Below, in pieces: positions 6,614-30,575 of a stretch of DNA of 44,802 bases. Position 1 is the first letter of the stretch. Each line of letters starts with the position of its first letter. Under the pieces are notes generated by a model. That model saw only the letters and a list, made by a program, of their open reading frames with translations. It was not told where the DNA came from and made no database searches. The translations under genes and the position numbers were made by a program. Origin of the DNA: Dehalococcoidia bacterium (lineage in GTDB: Bacteria; Chloroflexota; Dehalococcoidia; Lucifugimonadales; Australimonadaceae); contig JAKUPZ010000014.1 of the NCBI GenBank assembly GCA_022449765.1, positions 1 through 44,802 of the forward strand, written 5' to 3'.

Positions 6614-7101
6614 TAGTTATAGCGGGGGCAAGAATGAGCTTTGTCATCTGCAATAAGTGAGTGGCATAAGGGACACTTAGAACGACCCGAACCATGAACT
6701 TCAAACGCACGATCTGCAAGCCAATTCATCACACTCGGTTCTAACCACATCAGTACAGCATCTTCGATTGAACCGGGGATTGAAGCTAATATCATATACC
6801 GTCCGGACTCTTGATCGTAACCAAGCGAAAGACCTGTGACTTTCTGGTCAACATCAACATCGATTCCCACGTCGGCACTATAAGTTGGTTCTCCAGTTTC
6901 TCTAACTGGGCTTCTTAATAGTTGTTTGATAGTAAGAGCAAGTTCGTATAATTCTTCTTTTTCTAGCCAAAGAAGTGCTGATTCATTCTCACCTAGTACG
7001 TAAAGGCGAAAGGTACGAGCCCCTGGAACCCCAACGAATTGCGGCTCAATTAAGCTACAAACTCCTAAATCATATCGAGCAAAAGACCACTCATTTACCA
7101 T
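6613..7101 (-). CDS. DUF3090 family protein with C-terminal zinc-finger-like motif
   Basis: A 162-residue member of DUF3090 (TIGR03847). The N-terminal segment carries the family-typical stretch with PGARTFRLYVLGE (residues 26-38). The C-terminus holds CPLCHSLIADDKAHSCPRYN (143-162), with a CxxC pair, a histidine and a further cysteine that could bind one zinc ion. No enzymatic function is known to me for the family. It lies 3 bases after prs and overlaps the SCO1664 gene by one base, so it is the middle gene of a coupled trio. The context suggests a link to PRPP or nucleotide metabolism, which is an inference only. Confidence 0.88.
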   Translation of the reverse strand: MVNEWSFARYDLGVCSLIEPQFVGVPGARTFRLYVLGENESALLWLEKEELYELALTIKQLLRSPVRETGEPTYSADVGIDVDVDQKVTGLSLGYDQESGRYMILASIPGSIEDAVLMWLEPSVMNWLADRAFEVHGSGRSKCPLCHSLIADDKAHSCPRYN

Positions 7102-7104
7102 GGA

Positions 7105-8055
7105 TCACTTATCAAACATTGCTCCCACAGACATCCCACGATGTATACGGTAAATAGCTTCTCCGATCACATTGTCAACGCTCACAATTTTTATCTTGGA
7201 GGTATTCTCCGTTGAAATGAACGGAATCGTATCAGTACACACTAGTTCATGAATTGGGCTTCCTTCGAATTTTGTAACGGCACCACCAGAAAGCACAGCA
7301 TGTGTAGAAGAGGCGTATACGCCTTTGACACCCGCCTGTAAAAGCGCAGTCGCTGCGTTAACCATGGTTCCACCTGTATCTACTTCATCATCCATCAAAA
7401 TAGCTGTACAGCCTTCCACGTCACCGATGATATTCAGCAATTCTGATTTATCTTCATTACCCATCCTTCTTTTTTCGATAATAGCTAGGGGAACGCCAAG
7501 TTTTTCCGCCATATCCCTAGCTCGCTTAGAAATACCAATATCTACGGCTACAACTATAGGGTTATCTAATTTAAGATTTTCAAAATAATGCACAATAATT
7601 GGCAATGCAGTCAATTCATCTACAGGTATGTTGAAAAATCCCTGTATCTGCCCCGCGTGTAGATCCATAGTAAGTACACGATTAGCGCCTGCAGTTGTAA
7701 GTAAGTCTGCAACAAGCCTAGCTGTAATAGGAACTCGTGGTTGATCTTTTTTATCAGTTCTTCCGTATCCGTAATAAGGAATGACTGCGGTAATACGACC
7801 AGCAGACGCCCGCTTGGCAGCATCAATCATAATCAGCATTTCCATAATACTGTCGTTCACAGGCATGCAAAAAGACTGAATTAGGAAAACGTCCCGCTCC
7901 CTGATATTTTCCTGAATCCTGACAAATGTATTGTCATTACTAAATTTGAAAGCCTCAATGGTTCCTAGGTCGATATCCAAGTACTCAGCGACTCTAGTCG
8001 CTAGAGGATTATTAGAATTCCCCGAAAAAACTTTTAATTCCTCATATATAGCCAT
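7105..8055 (-). CDS. prs: Ribose-phosphate pyrophosphokinase
   Basis: A 316-residue PRPP synthetase, which transfers pyrophosphate from ATP to ribose-5-phosphate to give PRPP for purine, pyrimidine, histidine and NAD synthesis. The flexible-loop and metal region DLHAGQIQGFF is at residues 131-141, the YYGYGRTDKKD ATP-site segment at 94-104, and the PRPP-binding loop MDDEVDTGGT at 221-230 (the family usually has DDMIDTGGT; the change to EV is mild). It follows purM on the same strand after 77 bases and precedes DUF3090 by 3 bases, which puts it in a purine-supply operon. Confidence 0.96.
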   Translation of the reverse strand: MAIYEELKVFSGNSNNPLATRVAEYLDIDLGTIEAFKFSNDNTFVRIQENIRERDVFLIQSFCMPVNDSIMEMLIMIDAAKRASAGRITAVIPYYGYGRTDKKDQPRVPITARLVADLLTTAGANRVLTMDLHAGQIQGFFNIPVDELTALPIIVHYFENLKLDNPIVVAVDIGISKRARDMAEKLGVPLAIIEKRRMGNEDKSELLNIIGDVEGCTAILMDDEVDTGGTMVNAATALLQAGVKGVYASSTHAVLSGGAVTKFEGSPIHELVCTDTIPFISTENTSKIKIVSVDNVIGEAIYRIHRGMSVGAMFDK

Positions 8056-16929: not shown

Positions 16930-19137
16930 TTAGTCTCTAGGGCGTCTAGGACCCCTGTCCCTGTCCCTGTCTCTGCCGCCTCTTCGGTCGCCTCCATCAC
17001 GTGAACCGCCAGAGCTTCGGCCGCTTGGACTTGGTCGCCTTGCTACGACTTCTTCTGGACTAGAATCCTCTAATATTGCTCTATGGGACAAATTAACTCT
17101 ACCCATACGATCAACTTCATAAACCAAAACATCTAGTTCGTCACCAATTTTAAGGACGGATTCAACTGACTCGACTCGCTTTGTATCTAGTTCACTTACG
17201 TGAACTAGTCCATCTTTCCCTGGGAGGATTTCAACAAACGCACCGAAGTTCTCAATACGGGTAACCTTACCGGTATAACGCTCTCCGGTAACAACTTCTT
17301 TCGTCAGCCCTTCAATCATTTTTATTGCTTCTTCAGCTGATGCTCCATCGGAGGAGCCAATAGTTACAGAACCGTCATTATCAACATCTACCGAAGCACC
17401 TGTAGCTTCTATAATCCCTCGGATATTCTTGCCGCCGGGTCCAATTAAAGCACCAATCTTATCAACGGCGATGGTTAGTCGAGTCATTCGCGGAGCATTT
17501 GAGTTCAACTCGCTTCTTGGTTGCTCAATAGTACTTAGCATATGGTCGAGGATGAACGATCTTCCTTCTTTTGCTTGCGCTAAGGCCTGGCGAAAAATTT
17601 CCTGAGTGATTCCCGCAACTTTTATGTCCATTTGGAGCGCAGTAATTCCTTCGGTAGTACCAGCAACTTTAAAATCCATATCTCCGAAGAAATCTTCAAC
17701 GCCTTGAATATCAGTGAGTACTTGAAAATTACCATTCTCATCTGTCATTAATCCCATTGCCACACCAGAAACTGGCCGCGTGATTGGGACACCAGCATCC
17801 ATCAAGGACATTGTGCTACCACACACACTTCCCATCGAAGTGCTTCCATTTGAAGCTAAGGCCTCAGAGACTACTCTGAACGCATATGGGAAATCCACTT
17901 TATCTGGGATCACCGGCAATAATGCTCTCTCTGCTAAAGCGCCATGCCCGATCTCGCGCCTGCCAGTACCCATCCTACGGGCTTCACCTGTTGAATAAGG
18001 AGGGAAGTTGTAGTGGTGCATATAGCGCTTAGTATCTTCAGGATTCAAGCCGTCGAGCTTTTGTTCCAATGTCAGAGAACCCAAAGTTGCAATTGTTAAT
18101 ATTTGAGTTTCACCCCGTTGGAAAAGAGCAGAGCCATGAGTACGTGGTAGTAGCCCAACTTCACTTGACAATGAACGCACCTCGGTAAGCTTTCTTCCGT
18201 CAGGGCGTTTACCTTCCTTAATCACTTTTTCACGAACTATTTTCTTAAGAACTTCATCAAAAACTTTAGCAACGTCTGACGATTCATATTCCTCTGCCAG
18301 AGCAGTAATAGCCGAATCCTCAGCTTCCTTTATATTTTCGTTCCGCTCTCCTCTTCCCTGGCCACGGTCAATAACACCTTCAATTGAAGAACGCACTATG
18401 CTGTCAACTTTAGATACTAGGTCTGGGTCAGATTGACTCGCTAGCGTAACCTCTGCTTTTGCCTTACCAATATCTTTTACGAGCTGATCTTGCAATTCGA
18501 TAATCTTGACATTAGTTTCTTGGCCAATTCTCAAGGCTTCCAACACGATTTCTTCACTAACTTCTTTTGCTCCAGCCTCAATCATGATTACCGCATCTCG
18601 ACTGCCAGCAATAGTCAAATCTAATTTACTTTCCTCTAATTGTTCAAATGTGGGATTAACCACTACCTCATCATTTACATAACCCATACGAGTCGCGGCT
18701 ACAGGGCCATTGAATGGAATTTGGGACGTAGAAAGAGCAGCTGATGCACCAATTATCCCAAGAATATCTGGTTGGTTTACTTGATCAGCAGATAACACCG
18801 TAACTATTACTTGAACTTCATTTCGCATGCCTTTTGGAAAGCGTGGGCGCAATGGCCTATCGGTCAAGCGTGCAGCCAAAGTAGCTTCGGTAGTAGGACG
18901 ACCTTCCCTTCGGAAGAAACTCCCCGGAATTCTACCGACAGCATAAAGACGCTCTTCGTACTCAATTGTGAGAGGGAAGAAATCGAGTCCTTCACGAGAC
19001 CCTCCCATAACGGCAGTAACTAAAACCACCGTATCTCCATACCTGACAACTGCTGAGCCATGGGCCTGCGGTGCAAGTTTTCCGGTTTCTATTGAGAGAG
19101 TTCGCCCCCCAATTTCGATTTCATGGTAAGTAGGCAT
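16930..19137 (-). CDS. pnp: Polynucleotide phosphorylase
   Basis: A 735-residue PNPase, the phosphorolytic 3'-5' exoribonuclease of the RNA degradosome. It has two RNase PH domains (about 5-230 and 310-540), a KH domain with IGPGGKNIRGI (near 560) and an S1 domain (about 615-685), then a basic Arg/Gly/Asp-rich tail with RDRDRDRG, probably an extra RNA-contacting tail. FFRREGRPTE-like and GTGRREIGHGALAERAL active-site segments are present. The start is the ATG at 19137, because GCGAGGAG stands 5 bases before it; the longer TTG reading from 19158 runs through this ribosome-binding site. It follows rpsO by 86 bases, the classic rpsO-pnp order. Confidence 0.97.
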   Translation of the reverse strand: MPTYHEIEIGGRTLSIETGKLAPQAHGSAVVRYGDTVVLVTAVMGGSREGLDFFPLTIEYEERLYAVGRIPGSFFRREGRPTTEATLAARLTDRPLRPRFPKGMRNEVQVIVTVLSADQVNQPDILGIIGASAALSTSQIPFNGPVAATRMGYVNDEVVVNPTFEQLEESKLDLTIAGSRDAVIMIEAGAKEVSEEIVLEALRIGQETNVKIIELQDQLVKDIGKAKAEVTLASQSDPDLVSKVDSIVRSSIEGVIDRGQGRGERNENIKEAEDSAITALAEEYESSDVAKVFDEVLKKIVREKVIKEGKRPDGRKLTEVRSLSSEVGLLPRTHGSALFQRGETQILTIATLGSLTLEQKLDGLNPEDTKRYMHHYNFPPYSTGEARRMGTGRREIGHGALAERALLPVIPDKVDFPYAFRVVSEALASNGSTSMGSVCGSTMSLMDAGVPITRPVSGVAMGLMTDENGNFQVLTDIQGVEDFFGDMDFKVAGTTEGITALQMDIKVAGITQEIFRQALAQAKEGRSFILDHMLSTIEQPRSELNSNAPRMTRLTIAVDKIGALIGPGGKNIRGIIEATGASVDVDNDGSVTIGSSDGASAEEAIKMIEGLTKEVVTGERYTGKVTRIENFGAFVEILPGKDGLVHVSELDTKRVESVESVLKIGDELDVLVYEVDRMGRVNLSHRAILEDSSPEEVVARRPSPSGRSSGGSRDGGDRRGGRDRDRDRGPRRPRD

Positions 19138-19223
19138 GTATTCTCCTCGCTTATACAAGCAGCACTAATCTATCTATGAATTTGATTCGGTAAAAACGCT
19201 AGTGTCGAAGAATAAAGTATGGC

Positions 19224-19490
19224 TTAGCCGCGTAGGCCCAAGCTTTCCACTACGCTTCGGTAACGACCAACATCCTCTTTTGCAAGATATCGCAGTAAGC
19301 GACGTCGTTGTCCAACCAATTTCAAAAGACCTCTTCGTGTTGCATGGTCTTTGTGATTCTGGCGGAGGTGATCTGTCAGGCCGCGTATTCGCTCAGATAG
19401 AAGCGCAACTTGCACTTCTGTAGAACCAGTATCTCCTGGCTTCTTCTGGTATTGACTAATAATCTGTTGTTTTGTTTCTGTACTTAACAT
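19224..19490 (-). CDS. rpsO: 30S ribosomal protein S15
   Basis: An 88-residue S15, which binds the central domain of 16S rRNA early in 30S assembly. [17 protein letters not shown] and the LGLRG C-terminus are family hallmarks; the [19 protein letters not shown] segment carries the RNA-binding residues. The start is the ATG at 19490, giving the standard length; the frame is open further upstream but that part is not S15. A perfect extended -10 promoter lies upstream, and the leader between them can fold into two competing hairpins (see the leader entry), a likely autoregulatory site because S15 commonly controls its own mRNA. Confidence 0.96.
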
Positions 19491-19494
19491 TACT

Positions 19495-19514
19495 GGTCCG
19501 CGGACCGAGTCCTT
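19495..19514 (-). promoter_or_regulatory. rpsO leader: palindrome and competing hairpins between Shine-Dalgarno and AUG
   Basis: On the rpsO strand AAGGA (19514-19510) is 19 bases before the AUG, too far for normal initiation. Two exclusive hairpins are possible: GGAC-TCG-GTCC (19512-19502), which buries part of AAGGA, or GGTC-CGCG-GACC (19506-19495, inside a perfect 12-base palindrome), which would leave AAGGA free and bring it to an effective distance of about 7 bases from the AUG. This is a plausible S15 or growth-rate switch; it is inferred from base pairing only. Confidence 0.5.
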
Positions 19515-19544
19515 CTTTTTCCGCTCTTTTCTTATTTCGAATTC

Positions 19545-19553
19545 ATTATAACA
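19545..19553 (-). promoter_or_regulatory. rpsO-pnp promoter, extended -10
   Basis: On the minus strand TGTTATAAT is a perfect extended -10 (TGn plus TATAAT at 19550-19545). GGGACA at a spacing of 16 is a fair -35. Transcription would start near 19538 and give a leader of about 48 bases before the rpsO ATG. Confidence 0.7.
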
Positions 19554-19655
19554 TGACTGTGCTAATTGTCCCACAAAACGTACTTTTAAGAGTACCAAGC
19601 GTATCTCTGATTAGCATAATTCAATGTTTTCGTTCTTTTATATGAGGGAGTTTAA

Positions 19656-20747
19656 ATGAAGATCACCAGAGTGTTAGCCACTACCCACAATGTACCTGTA
19701 CCAGTACCACTTCTTGAAGAGCCTGTAATGAGGCCATTAGTTTTCTGTTCAATCGAAACAGACACAGGGATTTCAGGCTATGGTATTTCTGGTCCAATTC
19801 AACGTAATGCTGTACGTGAGCACATTAATACTGAAATGGGTCCAATGATCTTAGGTTCTGATCCGTTCAATACTGAACGAATATGGCACCAACTCTATGT
19901 CGAGCATAACCCTCGATCTCAAACTGGTACTTGGTCGTCTGCAATAAGCGCAATTGATATTGCGCTGTGGGATATAAAAGGAAAAGCTACAAATCTACCA
20001 GTATGGAAATTACTTGGAGGAGCGCAATCAATAGTGCCAGCGTATATCACATTTGGTCTCCCTGAGTATTCACAGGAACAATTAGTAGAAGTAGCAAAAT
20101 CTTTTGTTGATCAGGGAGAGGATAAGCTCAAAATGGTAGTGGGCGTCGCAGGTGATCATCAAGGATGGAAGGAAGATTCAAAAAGAGTACATGCGGTCAG
20201 AGATGCTATTGGCCCTGATGTGCAGCTCTCTATGGATGCTAACTACATGTTCCAATTCAATAATGCACTGAACCTGGCGAAAGCAGTTGAAGAATGTAAT
20301 ATTGAATGGTTTGAAGAGCCCGTATGGGGAAATGATGCTCAATTGTTGCATGATCTAAGGATGCGCACCAGCATTCCTATATCTGCTGGTCAGAACGAAG
20401 GCCATCGCTTCCGTGCGCGAGATCTATTGGTGAACAAGTCTGTAGATATTTTACAACCAAATGTTGCCTATTGCGGTGGGTTTTCAGAGGGTATGAAATT
20501 TGCGACTCTTGCGCACTCGTTCAACCTTCCAATTGCTAATGGCGGAGGCTGGCCCCACCACAATATGCATCTGCAAGCAGCAGTGCCCAATGGCTGGCGC
20601 ATTGAGTATCACTACGTAATGTGGAAATGTGGCGAAATATTATTTGACGGATGCGTGGGACCTGAAAAAGGGTGGACAATTATGCCTGAAGCCTCTGGCT
20701 TAGGACTTGACCCTAAATGGGACGCATTAAAAGAATACCAAGAGTAA
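19656..20747 (+). CDS. Enolase-superfamily enzyme, mandelate racemase/muconate lactonizing type
   Basis: A 363-residue MR-type enolase-superfamily protein. The capping domain covers about 1-120, and the barrel holds K157-x-K159 (DKLKM), metal ligands D194 (MDANY), E220 (WFEEPV) and E248 (GQNEG), and a histidine at 301/302 in GGGWPHHNMH. Lys on one face and His on the other is the MR-subgroup arrangement for removing the alpha-proton of an acid sugar or similar carboxylate; racemisation or dehydration of an aldonate is the likely reaction, but the substrate is unknown. GAGGGAG lies before the ATG. A strong terminator follows. Large families of such paralogs are a known feature of SAR202 genomes. 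Confidence 0.87.
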   Translation: MKITRVLATTHNVPVPVPLLEEPVMRPLVFCSIETDTGISGYGISGPIQRNAVREHINTEMGPMILGSDPFNTERIWHQLYVEHNPRSQTGTWSSAISAIDIALWDIKGKATNLPVWKLLGGAQSIVPAYITFGLPEYSQEQLVEVAKSFVDQGEDKLKMVVGVAGDHQGWKEDSKRVHAVRDAIGPDVQLSMDANYMFQFNNALNLAKAVEECNIEWFEEPVWGNDAQLLHDLRMRTSIPISAGQNEGHRFRARDLLVNKSVDILQPNVAYCGGFSEGMKFATLAHSFNLPIANGGGWPHHNMHLQAAVPNGWRIEYHYVMWKCGEILFDGCVGPEKGWTIMPEASGLGLDPKWDALKEYQE

Positions 20748-20785
20748 TTTAAAAGGGGCCAGATATCGATCTGGCCCCTTTTAAA
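20748..20785. terminator. Bidirectional intrinsic terminator, perfect 17-bp stem
   Basis: The 5' arm at 20748-20764 (with AAAAGGGGCCAGAT) pairs perfectly with the 3' arm at 20769-20785 around the loop ATCG. The A-run before and T-run after the GC core make it work on both strands. It lies between the end of the enolase gene and the stop of the P-II gene, which converge on it. Confidence 0.9.
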
Positions 20786-20789
20786 ACCG

Positions 20790-21143
20790 TTAAATTGCAG
20801 ATTCCCCTCGTTCTCCGGTTCTAACACGCACAAGATCAGATACAGGAGAAACAAATATTTTCCCGTCTCCAATTTCTCCTTCATCAGGACTACGGGCTGC
20901 ATCAATAATTGCATTAATTACCACTTCCTGCATGTCGTCATTGACTACCGTTCGTACTAATGTTTTTGGCACCGAAGATCTACTTGCCATACTTCCCCCG
21001 CGGCCGACAAATACTTCAACGCCTCTTTGTCTCCCCTGGCCCGTAACATTGTAATAGTAGAAACCCTGACACCCTACAGCTTCAAGAGCTGCGGTAACTG
21101 AACCCACTCGCTCAGGTCTAATAACAGCTTCAATACTAATCAT
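20790..21143 (-). CDS. P-II nitrogen regulatory protein with atypical T-loop
   Basis: A 117-residue GlnB/GlnK-family trimer that senses 2-oxoglutarate and ATP/ADP and controls ammonium uptake. It has IRPERVGSV near the start, GQGRQRGVEV (35-44) and GEIGDGKIFVSPV with RVRTGERGESAI at the end, all normal P-II landmarks. In the T-loop, RGGSMASRSSVPK (48-60) replaces the usual RGAEYMVDFLPK: the tyrosine that is uridylylated in proteobacteria (Y51) is a serine, and the loop is two residues longer. The start is the ATG at 21143, because GAGGG precedes it by 5 bases; an ATG four codons earlier overlaps that site. It lies 51 bases after amt in the same operon. Confidence 0.92.
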   Translation of the reverse strand: MISIEAVIRPERVGSVTAALEAVGCQGFYYYNVTGQGRQRGVEVFVGRGGSMASRSSVPKTLVRTVVNDDMQEVVINAIIDAARSPDEGEIGDGKIFVSPVSDLVRVRTGERGESAI

Positions 21144-21194
21144 TTTATCCCTCATTCTAAGACTGATGTCGCAAGTCTTTTTAATTGTTATTCT

Positions 21195-22388
21195 TTAGTC
21201 AGCACCGTCATGGACATATGCTCTTTCACCATGAGCAGAAACGTCTAGTCCCTGATCCTCTTCTCTTGCTGAAACTCGTAAACCTAACCCAGGAATAACA
21301 TCCAATATTTTAAGAATGATCAAGCTTGCTACAAATGAGTAAACCAGCGTAGCTCCTACACCAGTTAATTGAATGCCAAGTTGGGCAAAATCACCCTCAA
21401 TCACTCCTTTTACCCCTGCAAAAGCCTCCACGGTGAAAATCCCAGTAGCAATGGCACCCCAAATACCACCAATTCCGTGAACAGCAAAGACGTCCAGTGA
21501 ATCGTCTATACCTAATCTAGGGCGGAGTAAAACCGCACCGTAGCACAATAATCCAGCACCAATACCAATACCCAAAGCGCCCATAACACCAACTGCACCA
21601 GCAGCAGGAGTAATCGCTACCAATCCTCCAACTGCACCTGTTGCTACACCCGCAGCGCTCATTCGATTATGCTGAAATTGTGAAAGTAATCCCCAAGTAA
21701 GCGCAGCCGAAGCTGCAGCTGTATTAGTAACTAAAAATGCGTTGATCGCCACACCGTCAGCCGCCAATCCTGACCCCGCATTGAACCCAAACCACCCAAA
21801 CCACAGAAGCGCCGCACCAATAACAACGTAAGGTACATTCCCAGGTTCAAGTCCTGGATTTCTTCGTTTACCAATCAGAAGAGCCGCCGCTACCGCAGCT
21901 ACTGCCGCATTTATATGAACCACTGTCCCACCGGCAAAATCCAATGCACCTAATTCGAATAGCCATCCCTTTTCAGCCCATACCCAATGGCAGATAGGTG
22001 CATAGACCAATGTTATCCAAGCAACTAAGAACACTAGGTATGTGGTGAACTTGAACCTCTCCACAACCGCACCAGTTATAAGTGCTGGAGTTATAATCGC
22101 AAACATCATTTGGAATATTGCGAACAACATATCTTCACCTGGTTCAATCCCGCTAAGACCTAAAAGGCTAAGATCTCCAACCCAGGCATTGCCTTCACCA
22201 AAAGCTACGCTGTATCCCCATAGTACCCATACAACACTAACTACTGCCATACTCATAAAGCTCAGCATGATCGTGCTAAGGACATTTTGACTTCGGACCA
22301 AACCCCCATAAAAAAAGGCTAATCCTGGAGTCATCAGTAACACTAAAGCTGAGGCTGTTAATAACCAAGCTATTGAACCACTATCCAT
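21195..22388 (-). CDS. amt: Ammonium transporter
   Basis: A 397-residue Amt/MEP/Rh channel with about 11 membrane segments. Family marks are MTPGLAFFYGG (19-29), the DFAGGTVVHI segment carrying the first pore histidine (near residue 154), WFGWFGFNAGSG, and VHGIGGIWGA with the second pore histidine. The C-terminal tail after about 365 is cytosolic and would meet P-II, which is encoded just downstream. AAAAGGAG precedes the ATG by 8 bases. A four-box GlnR-like operator lies at 22438-22475, 50-87 bases upstream, and a TAGAAT -10 candidate at 22414-22409, so nitrogen control is likely. Confidence 0.95.
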   Translation of the reverse strand: MDSGSIAWLLTASALVLLMTPGLAFFYGGLVRSQNVLSTIMLSFMSMAVVSVVWVLWGYSVAFGEGNAWVGDLSLLGLSGIEPGEDMLFAIFQMMFAIITPALITGAVVERFKFTTYLVFLVAWITLVYAPICHWVWAEKGWLFELGALDFAGGTVVHINAAVAAVAAALLIGKRRNPGLEPGNVPYVVIGAALLWFGWFGFNAGSGLAADGVAINAFLVTNTAAASAALTWGLLSQFQHNRMSAAGVATGAVGGLVAITPAAGAVGVMGALGIGIGAGLLCYGAVLLRPRLGIDDSLDVFAVHGIGGIWGAIATGIFTVEAFAGVKGVIEGDFAQLGIQLTGVGATLVYSFVASLIILKILDVIPGLGLRVSAREEDQGLDVSAHGERAYVHDGAD

Positions 22389-22437
22389 AATGGCAACTCC
22401 TTTTAAAAATTCTATGAACTTACAATGCCATCCAAGT

Positions 22438-22475
22438 TTTACGTAAGTGTTACTTCATGGTTACAAACATGTAAC
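22438..22475 (-). promoter_or_regulatory. GlnR-like four-box operator upstream of amt
   Basis: Read on the amt strand the sites are GTTAC (22475-22471), GTAAC (22464-22460), GTAAC (22453-22449) and GTAAA (22442-22438), each separated by exactly 6 bases, an 11-base period. This follows the actinobacterial GlnR pattern gTnAc-n6-GaAAc repeated twice. It ends about 23 bases before the TAGAAT -10 candidate, which is a usual activator position. No GlnR-type regulator is encoded in this window. Confidence 0.6.
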
Positions 22476-22534
22476 AAAAATAGACTGGTATATTTTGACT
22501 GCTGGGTATTAGACTCCTTGCACAGAAGGCCATA

Positions 22535-23443
22535 TTGCTAAACGTATTCTTCACAGTTGTACTGCCCATATTCTTGGTCGCAAGCTCAGGTGCTCTATTG
22601 CAGCGCCTCCGGCCAGGTGTATTAGGAATGCTGGGTCCAGCTGCGCTATACCTACTCAGTCCTGCACTAGTATTGGATGGGCTTCTAGAAACAAATCTGT
22701 CAGCTGATGTCTCTCTCAAAATAATTGCAGCCACTGTTAGTGCAGTCATTTCAATGGCCGCAGTTTCATGGCTTGTATCCAAACTTCTCAAGCATGACAG
22801 GCCAACTCAGAGTGCATTCCTGCTAACGGGGACGTTTGCAAATGCCGGGAACATGGGATTACCAATTGCATATCTTGCGTTTGGTGAAGAAGGCCTAGCC
22901 GTAGCAATTTTAATTTTTGTGGCACAGGGGTCTTTAAGCTGGCCTTTAGGTATATACCTAGCTGCTAGAGGACGCACGAAAGGTTGGCAACCATTGATTA
23001 AGGCAATCAAGGTTCCTACTCTCTATGCAGTACCGCTAGCCCTAATAATTAGGGCTTTTGGGTGGGATTTACCTCAAACATTTGATACCACTATCAGCTT
23101 AATGGCCGACGCGACGATTCCTGCAATGCTACTTGTATTAGGCTACCAACTTGCTCAAGGCATACAGCTGGACAAAGCACTCAGCCTAGGCAGTGCACTT
23201 TTTACAAGGCTAGTGCTAGGAGCCATTATTAGCATAGGTCTTGCTGAATTGTTTGGTCTCGACGGTACCGCACGTAATACTGTAGTAGTGGTATCTGCAA
23301 TGCCTACAGCAGTATTCACCACAATTCTTGCTACAGAATTCCAAGCCATGCCAAGGTTCGTCGCAAGTGCAGTCGTAACCAGCACGCTAGCCAGTCTTAT
23401 AACCCTTACAGTATTAATTGATTTATTACAGAAGTACGGCTAG
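22535..23443 (+). CDS. AEC-family permease (auxin efflux carrier-like)
   Basis: A 302-residue membrane protein with about ten transmembrane segments in two halves of the AEC (bile/arsenite/riboflavin-type) fold. TGTFANAGNMGLPIAYLAFG (residues 97-116) is the broken-helix signature of the family, and VVVSAMPTAVFTTILATEF is its counterpart in the second half. Bacterial members export or take up malonate, malate or other organic acids; the substrate is not clear. It starts with TTG, preceded by AGAAGG at a 5-base distance. It is divergent from amt, so the GlnR-like operator could affect it too. Its stop lies 4 bases from that of the convergent OsmC gene. Confidence 0.83.
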   Translation: MLNVFFTVVLPIFLVASSGALLQRLRPGVLGMLGPAALYLLSPALVLDGLLETNLSADVSLKIIAATVSAVISMAAVSWLVSKLLKHDRPTQSAFLLTGTFANAGNMGLPIAYLAFGEEGLAVAILIFVAQGSLSWPLGIYLAARGRTKGWQPLIKAIKVPTLYAVPLALIIRAFGWDLPQTFDTTISLMADATIPAMLLVLGYQLAQGIQLDKALSLGSALFTRLVLGAIISIGLAELFGLDGTARNTVVVVSAMPTAVFTTILATEFQAMPRFVASAVVTSTLASLITLTVLIDLLQKYG

Positions 23444-23447
23444 TAAT

Positions 23448-23993
23448 CTAAAGAGGGTTTCCATTTAAAGTAATGACTGTTGTCGTTTCAACATTTTGAA
23501 TCATTGACTGCATTGCAAAACAACTAGATTCTGCCATTTTTACCAAATGTTGAATTTTGTCAGGAGGCTCGGAAGATTCAATATCGAGATTGGACTCAAG
23601 TCCGACTGGCCCTCCAGTTAGGGTTCCAGCCAAAGCCGATCCATCTCTGTAAAATCTTGCTGTCTGTTTTACTCTTGCCTTCGTGTATTCAATGTGCAAC
23701 ATCTCGCTCAACCGAGCAAGCTGTGTAAGCAGTCAGAAAGCTATACCTGCAGAAAAATACGCTAATGGAGGGGGAGCAGTATCATCTCCTCCTAAATATT
23801 GTCCTTCATCAGATAGCATCTCGAATGTGCTACCGCGCCCTGCATGAACCCTTGCAATTTTTTTCTGACGATCCAAGGTTTCTGCTTCTAAGCTAATGAC
23901 TATCTCCCGGCGAGATCCATCTTGACCTCCTAAGCCTGGCTCAGATTCTTTTAACTCTATTTTTCTAACAATTTGTTCCACAATATCACCCAA
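23448..23993 (-). CDS. OsmC-like redox protein, probable selenoprotein (Sec at in-frame TGA)
   Basis: One 181-residue OsmC-fold protein interrupted by a TGA at 23735-23733 (codon 87). The halves are in the same frame with no shift: residues 1-86 end in APPPLAYFSAGIAF, and after the TGA the reading continues LLTQLARLSEMLHIEY to 23448. The TGA sits where OsmC/Ohr proteins have the reactive cysteine (AGxAF-C). The second family cysteine is kept at about 158 (MAESSCFAMQ), so a Sec-Cys pair would reduce peroxides. A SECIS-like hairpin lies just downstream. OsmC-like selenoproteins have been described from marine metagenomes. The start is TTG at 23993 or GTG at 23981. The alternative is a nonsense mutation or sequencing error. 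Confidence 0.82.
23703..23720 (-). promoter_or_regulatory. Bacterial SECIS-like stem-loop
   Basis: On the mRNA CUUGCUC (23720-23714) pairs over all 7 positions (one G-U) with GAGCGAG (23709-23703) around the loop GGUU. The loop starts 20 bases after the UGA and has G in its first two positions, which fits the published bSECIS rules (loop 16-37 bases away, short loop with a leading G, upper stem of at least 4 pairs). Below it, ACA/UGU and UGC/GCA can extend the helix with small internal loops. Confidence 0.75.
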
Positions 23994-24023
23994 TCATTTA
24001 ACAGCTACTATGTAATGATCACA

Positions 24024-24044
24024 CGATGAGTTACTATCTCATCG
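24024..24044. promoter_or_regulatory. Inverted repeat between OsmC and MFS genes
   Basis: CGATGAG (24024-24030) and CTCATCG (24038-24044) form a perfect 7-base inverted repeat with a 7-base spacer in the short divergent region of the OsmC and MFS genes. It may be an operator shared by both; no regulator is recognised. Confidence 0.35.
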
Positions 24045-24074
24045 CTATCAGCATACCGTAAACCGGAGCATTTG

Positions 24075-25781
24075 TTGAAACTATCGGATCTATCGAAGCA
24101 AGAACGTAAAATTATTCGCGCGTGGTGCATGTACGACTGGGCAAACTCAGCGTTTGCTACCAGTGCGATTACAGCGATACTACCTGTTTATTTCGTTTTC
24201 CTTTTTCAAGATGCTCTCGGATCTGAATTGCTGATAGGCGGATTTTCATTCACCGGAAGTTCTCTTTGGAGCCTAGGGGCCGCGCTATCAACATCAATCG
24301 TTGCAGTCACTAGTCCTGTTTTAGGTGTGTTGGGCGATAGAATGGCCATCAGGAAAACCCTATTGGCTATCTATATGACAGCAGGATCGCTTTTCACAGT
24401 ACTTGCGTTTTTTTCTGCATATACTTCGTCTCCATGGGCTTGGCTACTAGGGACATTTTTCTTAGGTAATATTGGCTTCGCAGGAAGCCTAGTCTTCTAC
24501 AATTCTTTGCTCCCTCATGTATCCCCAAATGATGAGCTTCTAGATGATATTAGTTCACGGGGATATGCATATGGATATCTAGGAGGAGGTCTTCTTCTTC
24601 TCGTACATCTTGGCCTTAATTTAGCCTTCTCAGGTTCCTCATTCGCAGATTTGGTTACTCGGCTATCTCTCGCATCCGTTGGAATATGGTGGTTTCTTTG
24701 GGGTCTGTGGACGATTAAAGTTGTTCCTGAGCCGCCACTTTTGAATGCAAATAAAGCTGCTCCATTTAGTTCTGCCTTCAAAGATTCGTTCAGCCAATTA
24801 GCAAAAACTTTCAGAGAACTGAAAAATTTTAAAGTTATGCTTCTGTATTTTGGGGCGTTTTTATTATTCAACGATGGAATTCAAACAATCCTAGCAGTAG
24901 CCGGTGCATTTGCGGCAGATACCTTAGGCATTTCACTGACCTTCAACATGATTACTATATTAACCATTCAGTTTGTTGCTGCATTTGGAGCAATGCTATT
25001 TAGTCGCATAGCCAAATTAACCAGTACCAAAAAGGCTCTTACTGTTTCCCTAGTCGGATGGTCTTTCATAGTTTTATTAGGAGTAGGAATTGCACCTTTG
25101 GAGCCAAGTAAGCTAGAGGATCATGACTATCAATTTGTTTATGTAGAAAATACAAATATTTACAAAGTAGATGTAGCTCCTGATCTGAGTGATTCAAAGC
25201 TTGATAAAGAATGGGAGCAAAATATTGAAGGCCTCATAGATGCAAATACTAAGACCTTATCGATTGATCAAGCGCACAGCTTGCACAACTTAGTTGCAGA
25301 AAAATCGCAATATAGCAGTATGCTTTTCCAAGGACCGCTCAACGTATTAAATGGTGCCAGTGCAATTGGTCCAAATCATCCTTCCACATTAGGGTCAGGG
25401 ACATTGGACTGGTGGCCAATCGCATTGCGCGAAACTGTATGGAAGCCTTTAGGCATTCCTGCAGACTTTCAATGGTTATTGCTCGGTATCGGCGTAGGCC
25501 TTGTTATGGGAGGTAGTCAAGCGCTTGCCAGGAGTTTATTTGCGCAAATTGCTCCTAAATCAAGAAGTGGAGAATTCTTTTCTTTCTTCGGTTTCCTTAA
25601 TCGCGCTTCATACGTTTTTGGTCCTGTCCTGTACGCATTAGTTACGGGCATACTGGACACCCGTACAGCTGTTTTTTCGATACTAGTAATAATTGTTGCA
25701 GGCGCAATTCTTTTAAGTCGTGTAAATGTTGAGGAAGGGATACGCGTTGCTAAAGAAGAAGATGCGAGGATGGGACTCTAA
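24075..25781 (+). CDS. MFS transporter, UMF1/Atg22-like, with large soluble insert
   Basis: A 568-residue permease of the vacuole-effluxer Atg22-like MFS group, recognised by IRAWCMYDWANSAFATSAITAILPVYF (about 15-41, typical W-x-x-YDWANSAF). About twelve membrane segments are seen. Between about 340 and 465 there is a non-membrane insert, rich in Asp, Glu, Ser and Asn, that normal relatives (about 430 residues) lack; it probably lies outside the membrane between two helices. The family exports amino acids in yeast; bacterial substrates are unknown. Two TTG codons stand in a row at 24072 and 24075; GGAG at 24065-24068 is better spaced for the second. It overlaps the convergent GDPD gene by 4 bases. 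Confidence 0.83.
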   Translation: MKLSDLSKQERKIIRAWCMYDWANSAFATSAITAILPVYFVFLFQDALGSELLIGGFSFTGSSLWSLGAALSTSIVAVTSPVLGVLGDRMAIRKTLLAIYMTAGSLFTVLAFFSAYTSSPWAWLLGTFFLGNIGFAGSLVFYNSLLPHVSPNDELLDDISSRGYAYGYLGGGLLLLVHLGLNLAFSGSSFADLVTRLSLASVGIWWFLWGLWTIKVVPEPPLLNANKAAPFSSAFKDSFSQLAKTFRELKNFKVMLLYFGAFLLFNDGIQTILAVAGAFAADTLGISLTFNMITILTIQFVAAFGAMLFSRIAKLTSTKKALTVSLVGWSFIVLLGVGIAPLEPSKLEDHDYQFVYVENTNIYKVDVAPDLSDSKLDKEWEQNIEGLIDANTKTLSIDQAHSLHNLVAEKSQYSSMLFQGPLNVLNGASAIGPNHPSTLGSGTLDWWPIALRETVWKPLGIPADFQWLLLGIGVGLVMGGSQALARSLFAQIAPKSRSGEFFSFFGFLNRASYVFGPVLYALVTGILDTRTAVFSILVIIVAGAILLSRVNVEEGIRVAKEEDARMGL

Positions 25782-26533
25782 GCATATCCAAGGCTTTGGC
25801 GTGCAATGGACGGCCAGTTTACGGTGATTCCATGTATTCCAAGCGAAGAAGCTCTTTCGATATCGCCTTCTGATTCAATACCCCACGCACCGACAAAAAG
25901 TTGATTACCAATTGCCTTGTTAACAATCTCTTGTTGCATCATACCTATATAAGGTAAAAACCCTTTGATTTGATTATCAAGGCAAAATTCGATCGCGTCA
26001 TTTGACGGCTCGATCATTAGGAACCCATGCATCGCAGCACCAGGAATTATTTCTTTTGCACGAACAATCTGATCAGGTAAAAAGGAAATTAGCGATACTC
26101 CAGGTACAGGTATTTCCGTGTATGTCTGTTTTTCCAATGGATCTATCCAGCCCTGTTCAATAAGAAGCTCCCCAACCGTTTCCAATAGAGCTTCTTCATT
26201 AGATTTAATTTCGATAAATATGTGTGCTCTGTTCTTATATCGGATGAGAATTTCCTCCAACGTAGGAACCTGTTGATTGGAATATGCAACATCGAACCAA
26301 GAGCCTGCATCGAGTTTCTTAATTTCTTCTAGTGTCAATGAATTAATGGGCCCTGTACCATTAGTGGTTCTATCAACGTCAGAGTCGTGCATAACCACGG
26401 GAATTTTATCTAGCGTTAAATGTGTATCGAGTTCAATCAAGGGAAACCCAGAATTTACAGCTAAGTCAAAGCTAGCAATCGTATTTTCTGGCCTTTCAGC
26501 TGAATAGCCTCTATGAGCGATTATTTCAATCAA
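25778..26533 (-). CDS. Glycerophosphodiester phosphodiesterase family protein
   Basis: A 251-residue GDPD TIM barrel that splits glycerophosphodiesters into glycerol-3-phosphate and an alcohol. The key residues are visible: H7-R8 in IAHRGYSAERPENT, E35 and D37 in IELDTHLT, and H48 in VVMHDSDVDRTT. There is no signal peptide, so it is cytosolic. It lies 17 bases after the RNA methyltransferase gene on the same strand, which suggests co-transcription without an evident functional link. It could feed on phospholipid head groups, giving phosphate and glycerol. Confidence 0.92.
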   Translation of the reverse strand: MIEIIAHRGYSAERPENTIASFDLAVNSGFPLIELDTHLTLDKIPVVMHDSDVDRTTNGTGPINSLTLEEIKKLDAGSWFDVAYSNQQVPTLEEILIRYKNRAHIFIEIKSNEEALLETVGELLIEQGWIDPLEKQTYTEIPVPGVSLISFLPDQIVRAKEIIPGAAMHGFLMIEPSNDAIEFCLDNQIKGFLPYIGMMQQEIVNKAIGNQLFVGAWGIESEGDIERASSLGIHGITVNWPSIARQSLGYA

Positions 26534-26550
26534 TTTTACCTCGAATTTAT

Positions 26551-27306
26551 TTATTTCTTGTGCATAATTGCTGTGTATAAAACTATCCCGACAGTTGCAG
26601 CTAAGTTAATACTACTTACTCCATGTCTCATTGGTAGTCCCAAAGCCACATCAGCTAAATCCGCCAAATTACTACTCAGCCCCTCTCGTTCGGTTCCAAA
26701 TGCAAAAATTGCATTCTCAGGTAAATCATACTCCGTAATAAGAGATCCTTCTGGGTCTAAAGCAATAATTGGACGTCCAGAACCTATCAATTGATCTAAA
26801 GTCGCGGTTACCACTGGAATTGCAAATTGGAGGCCAGCTGCCCCGCGTATTGCAGCTGGTTCCCAAGGAGATGCACCGCTAATCAACATTACTCCAGCAG
26901 CTCCAGTTGCAGCTGCAATACGTATGCAAGCACCTAAATTCCCATAGTTATAGGGATTTTCCAATAACACAATGTGGCCAGGTGTCTTTAATACATCAGG
27001 TACCTTGTAATCAGGGCGTACTGCCACGCCATAAACACCCGTCCAATGAGAACGAGTTTTTCTTAATTTATCAACTATATTGGGCTTAATTATTTTGCAT
27101 CGTCCCAAAAATTGACTATCTAGGTCAGGAGCATAATCGCGAATAAGGTCCTTGAGTTTTGAAGGATATGCACAAGCGATAAGCTCAATCTGCGCATCAA
27201 ATCGCAACGCATGTTTTACAGAGTGAAAGCCATCCAAAAATACTAATTCATCGCGTTGAAGTGCATTAATTAGCAGATTATGGTCGTCTGTTGTTATGGG
27301 ATTCAT
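26551..27306 (-). CDS. SpoU/TrmH-family RNA 2'-O-methyltransferase
   Basis: A 251-residue SPOUT methyltransferase. The knot motifs are LLENPYNYGNLGACIRIAAA (motif 1, near 99-118), FGTEREGLS (motif 2) and LPMRHGVSSINLAATVGIVLY (motif 3) near the C-terminus. The N-terminal 90 residues form a substrate-binding part. Members modify 23S rRNA (RlmB type) or tRNA; in motif 3 the usual SLN is SIN, and the target cannot be chosen from sequence. It starts with an ATG 24 bases downstream of the 3' end of tRNA-Cys, so the tRNA and this gene may share a transcript. Confidence 0.86.
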   Translation of the reverse strand: MNPITTDDHNLLINALQRDELVFLDGFHSVKHALRFDAQIELIACAYPSKLKDLIRDYAPDLDSQFLGRCKIIKPNIVDKLRKTRSHWTGVYGVAVRPDYKVPDVLKTPGHIVLLENPYNYGNLGACIRIAAATGAAGVMLISGASPWEPAAIRGAAGLQFAIPVVTATLDQLIGSGRPIIALDPEGSLITEYDLPENAIFAFGTEREGLSSNLADLADVALGLPMRHGVSSINLAATVGIVLYTAIMHKK

Positions 27307-27326
27307 AAAAGAAGAATTATTAAATT

Positions 27327-27402
27327 TGGAGGCGACGGGCAGAATCGAACTGCCGAATAGGAGTTTTGCAGACTCCCGCCTTAACCACTTGGCTACGTCG
27401 CC
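27327..27402 (-). tRNA. tRNA-Cys (GCA)
   Basis: A complete cloverleaf on the minus strand: acceptor GGCGACG/CGTCGCC, anticodon stem GGAGT/ACTCC with loop CTGCAAA (anticodon GCA), T-arm with GTTCGATTC, discriminator U and an encoded CCA (27329-27327). Confidence 0.96.
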
Positions 27403-27450
27403 TTACAAACACGTAGGTTACTGAGATGTCATTAGAGTCGTCAAATCATT

Positions 27451-28503
27451 CTACAGTTCTAGTAATTCACTAACGTCATATTCAACTGATAAATCAACTA
27501 ATTTCCCCCACGTTGAATCCTCAACAAATATTCCATCCTGTAATCTTTTTTGAGTATTACGATGCTCTATTTCACCCGGGTATAAGATCTCTTCAAAGCC
27601 AGCAGCCATTTTTGAAGCTTTCAAATAACCTGCGAGATCGGTCACTTGTTGCTTGAATTCCTCAATAGGCCTGAACGCAGATACATTGAAAACCGCCATA
27701 AAACACCCATCGTTATGAAAACCTCGCGGGTCATGACCGAACCCAAGACCAGTCAATATTCCTGACAAAATCTCTACAATTACGGATAAACCGTATCCTT
27801 TATAACCCTCAGACCCGCCTAAAGGCAGGAGTGCGCCACCTTTTTCTCGCAACACCGATGGATCTGTAGCAGGGTTTCCTTCACTATCTACTACCCAACC
27901 TTCAGGTATATCAACTCCTCGTGCTTTTGCAAGCTCTACCTTCCCCGCAGCAACTGCGCTTGTTGCCATATCGATAAATAACGGACCATCTAAATTACTG
28001 GGCACTGCCACACATATAGGATTTGTACCCAATCTGGGTTCTCTTCCACCAAAAGGTGCGACGGCTTTGGCAGTTCTCCCAGAATCCGCAGTCATTAGTC
28101 CAATTAGCCCCTCCTTAGCGGCCATTAAGGGATAATCAGCTACTCTACCAACATGACTTTGCCTGTACACTGTTGCAGCAGCAGCCCCTTGTGTCTTCGC
28201 CTTTTCTATAGTCATTCGCATAACATGTTCGGAGACTACATAACCGAAGCCCCAGTGACCATCCGCAACAGTGGTAGAGGGAGTTTCTTGGACAATATCA
28301 AAAGGAGCCCCTGGGATAATATGACCGCGCTTTACCCTATCTATGTAAGTAGGTATTTGAATAATCCCATGCGAGTCGTGGCCTGCTAAGTTAGCACCAA
28401 TAACATGCCGTGCAATAATTTCAGATTCATCTGAGCTTGCTCCTGCGCATTGCAATAATTTATCTGTAATCTCTAAGAGACGCTTGTGTCCCACAATAGG
28501 CAT
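27451..28503 (-). CDS. Malate/L-lactate dehydrogenase family (Ldh2/YlbC-type) oxidoreductase
   Basis: A 350-residue NAD(P)-dependent dehydrogenase of the Ldh_2 family (unrelated to the Rossmann LDH/MDH), which reduces 2-oxo acids such as malate, ureidoglycolate, sulfolactate or 2,3-diketogulonate. It shows NLAGHDSHGIIQIPTYIDR with the catalytic histidine, a GFGYVVSE segment, YRQSHVGRVADYP and FGGREPRLGTNPI, which binds the cofactor. The start is the ATG at 28503, which begins right at the family's N-terminus; an upstream GTG at 28551 would add 16 unlikely residues. tRNA-Leu lies upstream on the same strand. Substrate unknown. Confidence 0.87.
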   Translation of the reverse strand: MPIVGHKRLLEITDKLLQCAGASSDESEIIARHVIGANLAGHDSHGIIQIPTYIDRVKRGHIIPGAPFDIVQETPSTTVADGHWGFGYVVSEHVMRMTIEKAKTQGAAAATVYRQSHVGRVADYPLMAAKEGLIGLMTADSGRTAKAVAPFGGREPRLGTNPICVAVPSNLDGPLFIDMATSAVAAGKVELAKARGVDIPEGWVVDSEGNPATDPSVLREKGGALLPLGGSEGYKGYGLSVIVEILSGILTGLGFGHDPRGFHNDGCFMAVFNVSAFRPIEEFKQQVTDLAGYLKASKMAAGFEEILYPGEIEHRNTQKRLQDGIFVEDSTWGKLVDLSVEYDVSELLEL

Positions 28504-28578
28504 TGTTTCACCATGTTTATCTTTTAGTAGGGTTAAAATTGGAAGCCCCACTTGCCTTGCATGGAGCGTTGTCAGTAA

Positions 28579-28664
28579 TGGTGCGCAGGAAGAGACTCGA
28601 ACTCTTACGGGATTGCTCCCACTGCCCCCTCAAGACAGCGTGTCTACCATTCCACCACCTGCGC
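28579..28664 (-). tRNA. tRNA-Leu (GAG)
   Basis: Class II tRNA on the minus strand: acceptor GCGCAGG/CCTGCGC, D-arm GGTGGAATGGTAGACA, anticodon stem CTGTC/GGCAG with loop TTGAGGG (anticodon GAG), a long variable arm, T-arm GTTCGAGTC, discriminator A and encoded CCA. Confidence 0.95.
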
Positions 28665-28791
28665 GGGATATGAATTGTAGAACGCAAACGCAGCTCTGCC
28701 AACAGGTATAGCTTTAATATCATTAATTACTATAAAAACACCAGTGTAAAAAAGAGCATATACTCGTACAAAAATTACAAAAGGAGCACAG

Positions 28792-29154
28792 ATGGGAACT
28801 TCGAGGATGTACGCTGATGTTAACGGCGACACGACTTGGCAACCGATTAATTTAGATGATCACCCAGAATGGATAGATGGATTTGAAGCTAAAGATATCA
28901 AATTTGGAATTAGACAGCCTGATATTGAGCAAGATTGGCATCCTGCACCAAAACGTCAGTTCGTAATTATTTTATCAGGGGCTCTTCAAATCACTTATCC
29001 GGATGGTTCTAAAAAAGTCTTCGGATCGGGAGAAGCACGTCTTATGGACAATATTACAGGCAAGGGCCATAAAACAATTGCTGTCGGTGGAGTTCCTTGC
29101 ATAACGGCAACTGTAGTACTGAACGATCAGGAGCCCCGTATCGGAGCTATTTAA
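28792..29154 (+). CDS. Cupin-domain protein
   Basis: A 120-residue single-domain cupin. The first cupin motif is weak: [22 protein letters not shown] (about 45-66) has one histidine and a glutamine where further ligands are usual, and the second motif carries a histidine in [11 protein letters not shown]. With so few ligands metal binding is doubtful, and it may bind a small ligand instead. AAGGAG stands before the ATG. The gene is alone on the plus strand and overlaps the end of the photolyase operon by 4 bases. Function unknown. Confidence 0.75.
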
Positions 29155-30575
29155 GTGAGCGATCGGTGCTTTCGAGAAGCTAAGTAAGCAACTCTCTTTG
29201 CCAATCCATCAAAGACAATCCTGTGGATTGGCAAAAGGGCATACCAGTAAATAATTCCAAAGGATCCCTTGGGAGCAAAATAAGACTGCTGTACAAGAGT
29301 ATTAGTTTCGCCGTTTGCGATCACTCTGAATTCCAACCATGCGTTACCAGGTACTTTCATTTCTGCCCGGAGCAAAAGCCGTGAATTTCTTTCAATACTT
29401 TGTACACGCCAAAAATCTACTGCATCACCAACTGAAAGCATTCCATCCGGCCGACCTTTGCGCAATCCTATACCACCGAATATACGGTCTATAAATCCTC
29501 TTAATCTCCAGCCCCAATTAAGGTACCAACCGCTAGAACCGCCTAAAGAGCAGAATGCTTGAAAAATTTCCTCTACAGTAGCATTCACTTCTACTTTTCG
29601 TGTTTCAACAATCATGCCTCGCTGAACAGATTTGCTAAATTTGGATCGCGCTAATGGATTGTAATTGAGTTTATCGGGGTTTAAATCTTGCAAAGCAATT
29701 CGAACCGAATCTCGGTACCCTAACGGGTTAATTCTGGGGAAAATCTGTTGGCTGTCCTTACTTCTTAAAACTACTTCACTTCTTAAACCTTCGACTAGAG
29801 GTCGAGCAAAGCTGGCTTTCAATGGAGTGACCCAGTGTACCCAATACGACGATAGCCTAGGTGTTAAAACAGGGACTCGAATCATCGCACGTTTCAATCC
29901 CCGTTCTTTCGCATAACCTGTCATCATTTCTCCGTAGCTAAGTACCTCTGATCCTCCTATTTCAATTACTTGATGGCCTTGTTGCGAAATATTCAAACTA
30001 CTAACTAAATATTCCAATGCGTCGCCTAAGCCAATTGGTTGAACTTGTGTGAACACCCATCTCGGGCAAATCATTATTGGCACTCTTTCAGTCAGGTAAC
30101 GCACCATCTCGAATGGCAAGCTACCAGCTCCTACTACAGGACCTGCCCTCAATTCTATGACATCAGCGCTAAATTTCGCTAAAGCCTTCCCTGTTGCATG
30201 GCGAGATTTCAAGTGTGATGTGAGAAGGGAATCGGGATTTCCCAATGCGCCTAGGAAAATTATACAAACTGAATTGGACGCGGCCGACTGGCCAAAAGAC
30301 TCCGCTGCCTTTATGTCGTCGTGATGAAAAGAATTGCTTGAACCACGCATACTATGAATCAAATAATATGCGACTTCCACCTCATTAAGAGCAGCGTCTA
30401 CAGCATCTTTATTGCGAGCGTCCCCCACAAATATTTTTATTTTTGATACCCATTCAAAAAATTCCAATTGTTGGGGATCACGAACCAGTACTGAAACATC
30501 ATGTCCATCGTCTAATAATTGAGGTACTAAGTTGCTCCCAATATAACCAGTCACACCCGTCACTAGAATCCTCAT
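29151..30575 (-). CDS. SDR/NmrA-like NAD(P)-binding protein fused to DUF2867
   Basis: A 474-residue two-domain protein. The N-terminal atypical SDR domain has the [10 protein letters not shown] loop (7-16), VLVRDPQQL and YYLIHSMRG segments. From about residue 325 ([11 protein letters not shown]) a DUF2867 domain follows, an SRPBCC-like ligand-binding fold. The same fusion occurs next to photolyase, DUF1365 or SRPBCC genes in other bacteria. The substrate is unknown; a lipid or isoprenoid-like molecule is a reasonable guess. It is the last gene of the 11-gene operon, its ATG overlapping the photolyase stop by 4 bases. Confidence 0.82.

Follow-up and report, generated by a model that had tools for sequence, protein, structure and literature searches.

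An OsmC-like protein of the UxxT family that very probably contains selenocysteine, encoded in a SAR202-type Chloroflexota genome

On the minus strand of the window (the whole 44,802-nucleotide stretch of Dehalococcoidia DNA analysed here) we found a gene that very probably encodes an OsmC-fold selenoprotein in which UGA specifies selenocysteine (Sec); we infer insertion from the sequence, the machinery of the genome and a conserved hairpin. The gene is a member of the known UxxT family of OsmC-like selenoproteins, and so of a kind already described, because it scores over the cut-off of the family model, carries TGA at the cysteine column, has a hairpin and is accompanied by the Sec machinery.

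Gene, frame and family

The minus-strand frame 23993-23451 is interrupted only once, by a TGA at 23735-23733, and reading this codon as Sec yields a single OsmC-like protein instead of two halves. An earlier note on this DNA had described two in-frame halves of one OsmC-fold protein split at this TGA, and the frame is indeed open otherwise. The note gave the extent as 23448-23993; the stop end at 23448 holds, and the start moves, as GTG at 23981 is most likely the start rather than TTG at 23993, because relatives begin at the homologous MEEIVRK. The features are as follows.

23448..23981, minus strand: predicted OsmC-like selenoprotein gene; 177 aa including Sec, open frame but for one TGA, with NF041052 and Pfam OsmC matches
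23981-23979, minus strand: probable start codon GTG; VEQIVRK, aligning with the ATG start MEEIVRK of relatives
23733..23735, minus strand: in-frame TGA, putatively Sec; residue 83 from GTG (87 from TTG), where other OsmC-like proteins have Cys
23703..23720, minus strand: SECIS-like hairpin; 7-pair stem and GGUU loop, with compensatory changes in relatives
23520..23522, minus strand: codon TGT of the second (resolving-type) Cys; residue 154 from GTG, conserved in every Sec-type family member read
23450-23448, minus strand: stop codon TAG

Read through the TGA, the gene matched Pfam OsmC (PF02566) at 46.4 bits (cut-off 27.5) and the curated NCBIfam model of the selenoprotein family, NF041052 'OsmC-related (seleno)protein', at 166.1 bits (cut-off 95). 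The UxxT motif at the reactive-cysteine column is ULLT in the window gene. A 2005 study of the Sargasso Sea described 3 OsmC-like selenoprotein sequences with UxxT (PMC1088965), and a 2008 study of the GOS described 5 OsmC-like selenoprotein sequences (PMC2398784), which bears out the earlier note's mention of marine metagenomes, and the family also appears in reviews of 2022 and 2026. With the described members the window gene shares Sec at the same column, ULLT, a small hairpin with a G in its apical loop and a score above the curated cut-off. It differs in nothing of substance besides an N-terminal stretch of ~25 residues, which is common to its own taxonomic family, and in its SAR202-type Chloroflexota genome.

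Fold and predicted reaction

The structure model of the protein (pLDDT 87) places Sec83 within a long helix (72-95) and Cys154 just past helix 140-153. The best Foldseek matches in the PDB were OsmC/Ohr proteins, led by 3cje and 2opl, which were also the two best by sequence, and fold and PF02566 match both identify an OsmC protein. These two structures have Cys where the window protein has Sec, and 2opl lacks a second Cys at the aligned place. In Ohr, the reactive Cys61 is assisted by Arg19 and Glu51 and is resolved by Cys125 (PMC5962072). The window protein resembles the Ohr/OsmC peroxidases in its OsmC fold, in a reactive residue in the central helix and in a second, C-terminal Cys at the corresponding place; this second catalytic cysteine, which the earlier note had reported as kept, is encoded by TGT at 23522-23520. 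It differs from them in having Sec for the peroxidatic Cys, in its weak match to an Ohr model (14 bits, where the cut-off is 240) and in the residue 10 before Sec, which is Glu in Ohr and Leu both here and in 3cje. The Ohr triad Arg-Glu-Cys is therefore not intact by sequence, with Leu standing for Glu and Sec as the reactive residue.

By analogy with Ohr/OsmC enzymes, Sec83 would be the reactive residue of the central helix, and its selenolate would most likely reduce an organic or lipid hydroperoxide. Cys154 would then resolve the selenenic acid so formed, giving a selenenyl sulfide that a dithiol reductant would reopen. We favour hydroperoxide reduction via a selenenyl sulfide as the most likely reaction, with modest confidence. 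A selenoprotein that is no hydroperoxidase, a YhfA-type OsmC-like protein with some other redox role such as a persulfide or thiol-disulfide reaction, is a substantial though less probable alternative: a review assigns the family to COG1765, the YhfA type, YhfA has no known activity (PMC5962072), and the triad Glu is replaced. Hydroperoxide reduction is favoured over it by the retention of the reactive residue pair and the OsmC fold, and by the OsmC and Ohr enzymes that have been tested, which are thiol peroxidases (PMC5962072).

Hairpin and selenocysteine machinery

Behind the TGA lies a hairpin whose stem, CUUGCUC/GAGCGAG, pairs exactly (23720-23714 with 23709-23703) around a GGUU loop (23713-23710). 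The stem begins at the 13th base past the TGA and the loop at the 20th; pairing, loop and spacing are exactly as the earlier note had described. The apical loop contains a G, in keeping with the rule for SECIS-like elements stated in PMC1088965. SelB and Sec-tRNA(UCA) would bind this hairpin just behind the UGA, and Sec would be inserted at residue 83.

The plain minimum free energy (MFE) of the 61-nt region was unremarkable (z -1.21). After this proved not significant, we used synonymous-codon shuffles and covariation counts, together with a hairpin scan. Against protein-preserving synonymous shuffles the window gene gave p ~0.002 by MFE and 0.012 by loop-G stem score; most relatives showed similar or stronger values, and four loci were weak by MFE (L028, L031, L035 and L075). 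In the window, a GG-loop hairpin of the same kind stands behind 7 of 1724 TGAs, and of these only the one at 23735-23733 also links two halves that are open in the same frame. The remaining long junctions across an in-frame TGA, at 7107 and 10688, had no hairpin and were set aside. At 7107 (7101-7107) there is no read-through: gene 7105-8055 ends in a TGA that is by chance in frame with the next gene downstream and has no SECIS-like hairpin. Rfam gave no matching family.

In relatives the stem is maintained through compensatory changes, in two registers. Eight distinct sequences follow the window gene's register; of the seven stem positions, six are paired in every one of them and the seventh in 7/8, with both-side exchanges at fixed positions (C-G/A-T, C-G/G-C and G-C/T-A); the second register, GGTTC or GGTAC, is maintained in 7 further sequences. 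This recurrence with compensatory changes goes, in most members, beyond protein-coding expectation.

The window's genome (35 contigs, 96.8% complete) encodes selB on contig C1 (350.9 bits), selA on C7 (537.3 bits), selD on C3 (372.6 bits) and a tRNA-Sec with anticodon tca (UCA) on C16. The general requirement for bacterial selenoproteins, selA, selB, selC and selD, is thus present in full, as the earlier note had expected of the organism. The selD gene has an in-frame TGA of its own (TCAGUAGK; L009:1501-2424, minus strand), which makes its product a selenoprotein too, as in many bacteria. A selA match at E 1e-60 is present in 17/18 class genomes bearing the TGA form above cut-off; G352, the one without it, is assembled only as a draft in ~260 contigs and does carry selB. 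Across the class, selA exceeded the family cut-off in 254 of 393 genomes; Sec use is therefore common there.

The same data bear on whether this UGA is instead decoded as Trp or Cys, owing to an altered genetic code or a suppressor. Most stops nearby are not UGA, as that reading would have it, but UGA still terminates genes. With 4 of 30 neighbouring ORFs closed by UGA, and CCA as the anticodon of the tRNA-Trp in the window, nothing points to an altered code overall. With the full Sec machinery in the genome, and the TGA at the reactive-cysteine column with a hairpin behind it, reading as Trp or Cys is extremely improbable.

Relatives and exchange of Cys and Sec

In a class sample of 393 genomes, NF041052 matched above cut-off at 19 places with exactly one in-frame TGA and at 2 without a stop; a phylum sample of 301 genomes gave 18 and 1, respectively (3 common to the class sample). 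Pooled, the samples hold 34 places with one in-frame TGA and three without. The earlier note had set the TGA at the position of the reactive cysteine. This was so in 28/28 TGA genes read above cut-off (window gene included), and the column is retained as TGA in relatives down to ~30% identity. The nearest relative, in SAR202 cluster bacterium OSU_TB62 (L020), has 86% protein identity and keeps the TGA; its locus is collinear with window positions 17425-29975, at 77% DNA identity over 12.6 kb. It was the one close relative in the contig scan of genomes. Viral contigs yielded no relative, and plasmid matches were to OsmC family proteins at ~33% identity.

Alignment with Cys-form homologues, which the earlier note had proposed, revealed Cys/TGA interchange at this column. 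L080, a member of the family, is a Cys form: its codon is TGC (CLIT) and the stem is absent (-0.6 kcal/mol), against stems of -7.3 to -11.8 kcal/mol in its Sec-type relatives L081-L083 and L085. Further Cys forms without a stem are L066, L067 and L054. The genome of L080 (G649) still has selB, and two genomes, G337 and G270, each carry one Sec copy and one Cys copy. Another genome, G119, carries two Sec-type OsmC genes (L027 and L035); in the second, which reads UTLSVAASL, the hairpin is a different one with weak statistics.

A pseudogene or sequencing error, in which a Cys codon TGC or TGT became TGA and left two dead halves, is consistent with the single base that separates these codons and with the existence of Cys forms. 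Yet many independent genomes carry the same TGA with both halves conserved, and their hairpins are maintained with compensatory changes. Sequencing error, which the earlier note had named as a possible refutation, is excluded because independent genomes carry the same TGA; with TGA and hairpin conserved across genomes, this reading as a whole, to which we give almost no weight, is already refuted. The proposal of a probable selenoprotein is supported by the machinery, the conserved TGA, the Cys/TGA interchange and the conserved SECIS-like hairpin.

Five further loci of the same class (L068, L069, L070, L071 and L073) belong to other OsmC branches and have one TGA at the reactive-cysteine column, in the motifs UTVI, UTAI, UTVV and ULSV; hairpins are good in L068, L069 and L073 and weak in L070 and L071. 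Sec may have been acquired repeatedly at this one reactive position, by separate OsmC branches of these Chloroflexota, a proposal that we regard as evenly balanced.

Our literature search found no paper joining SAR202 and selenoprotein, although most sampled class genomes carry selA. This analysis adds a set of genomes across which the family is widespread in Chloroflexota, with the phylum deduced from the SAR202 relative; a Cys-type member of the UxxT family; and other OsmC branches whose TGA falls at this column, three of them with good hairpins. Standard gene calling would split the gene into two hypothetical fragments and so overlook a redox protein that abundant ocean bacteria conserve. 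The natural Sec and Cys forms of the family make a direct comparison of selenium's contribution feasible.
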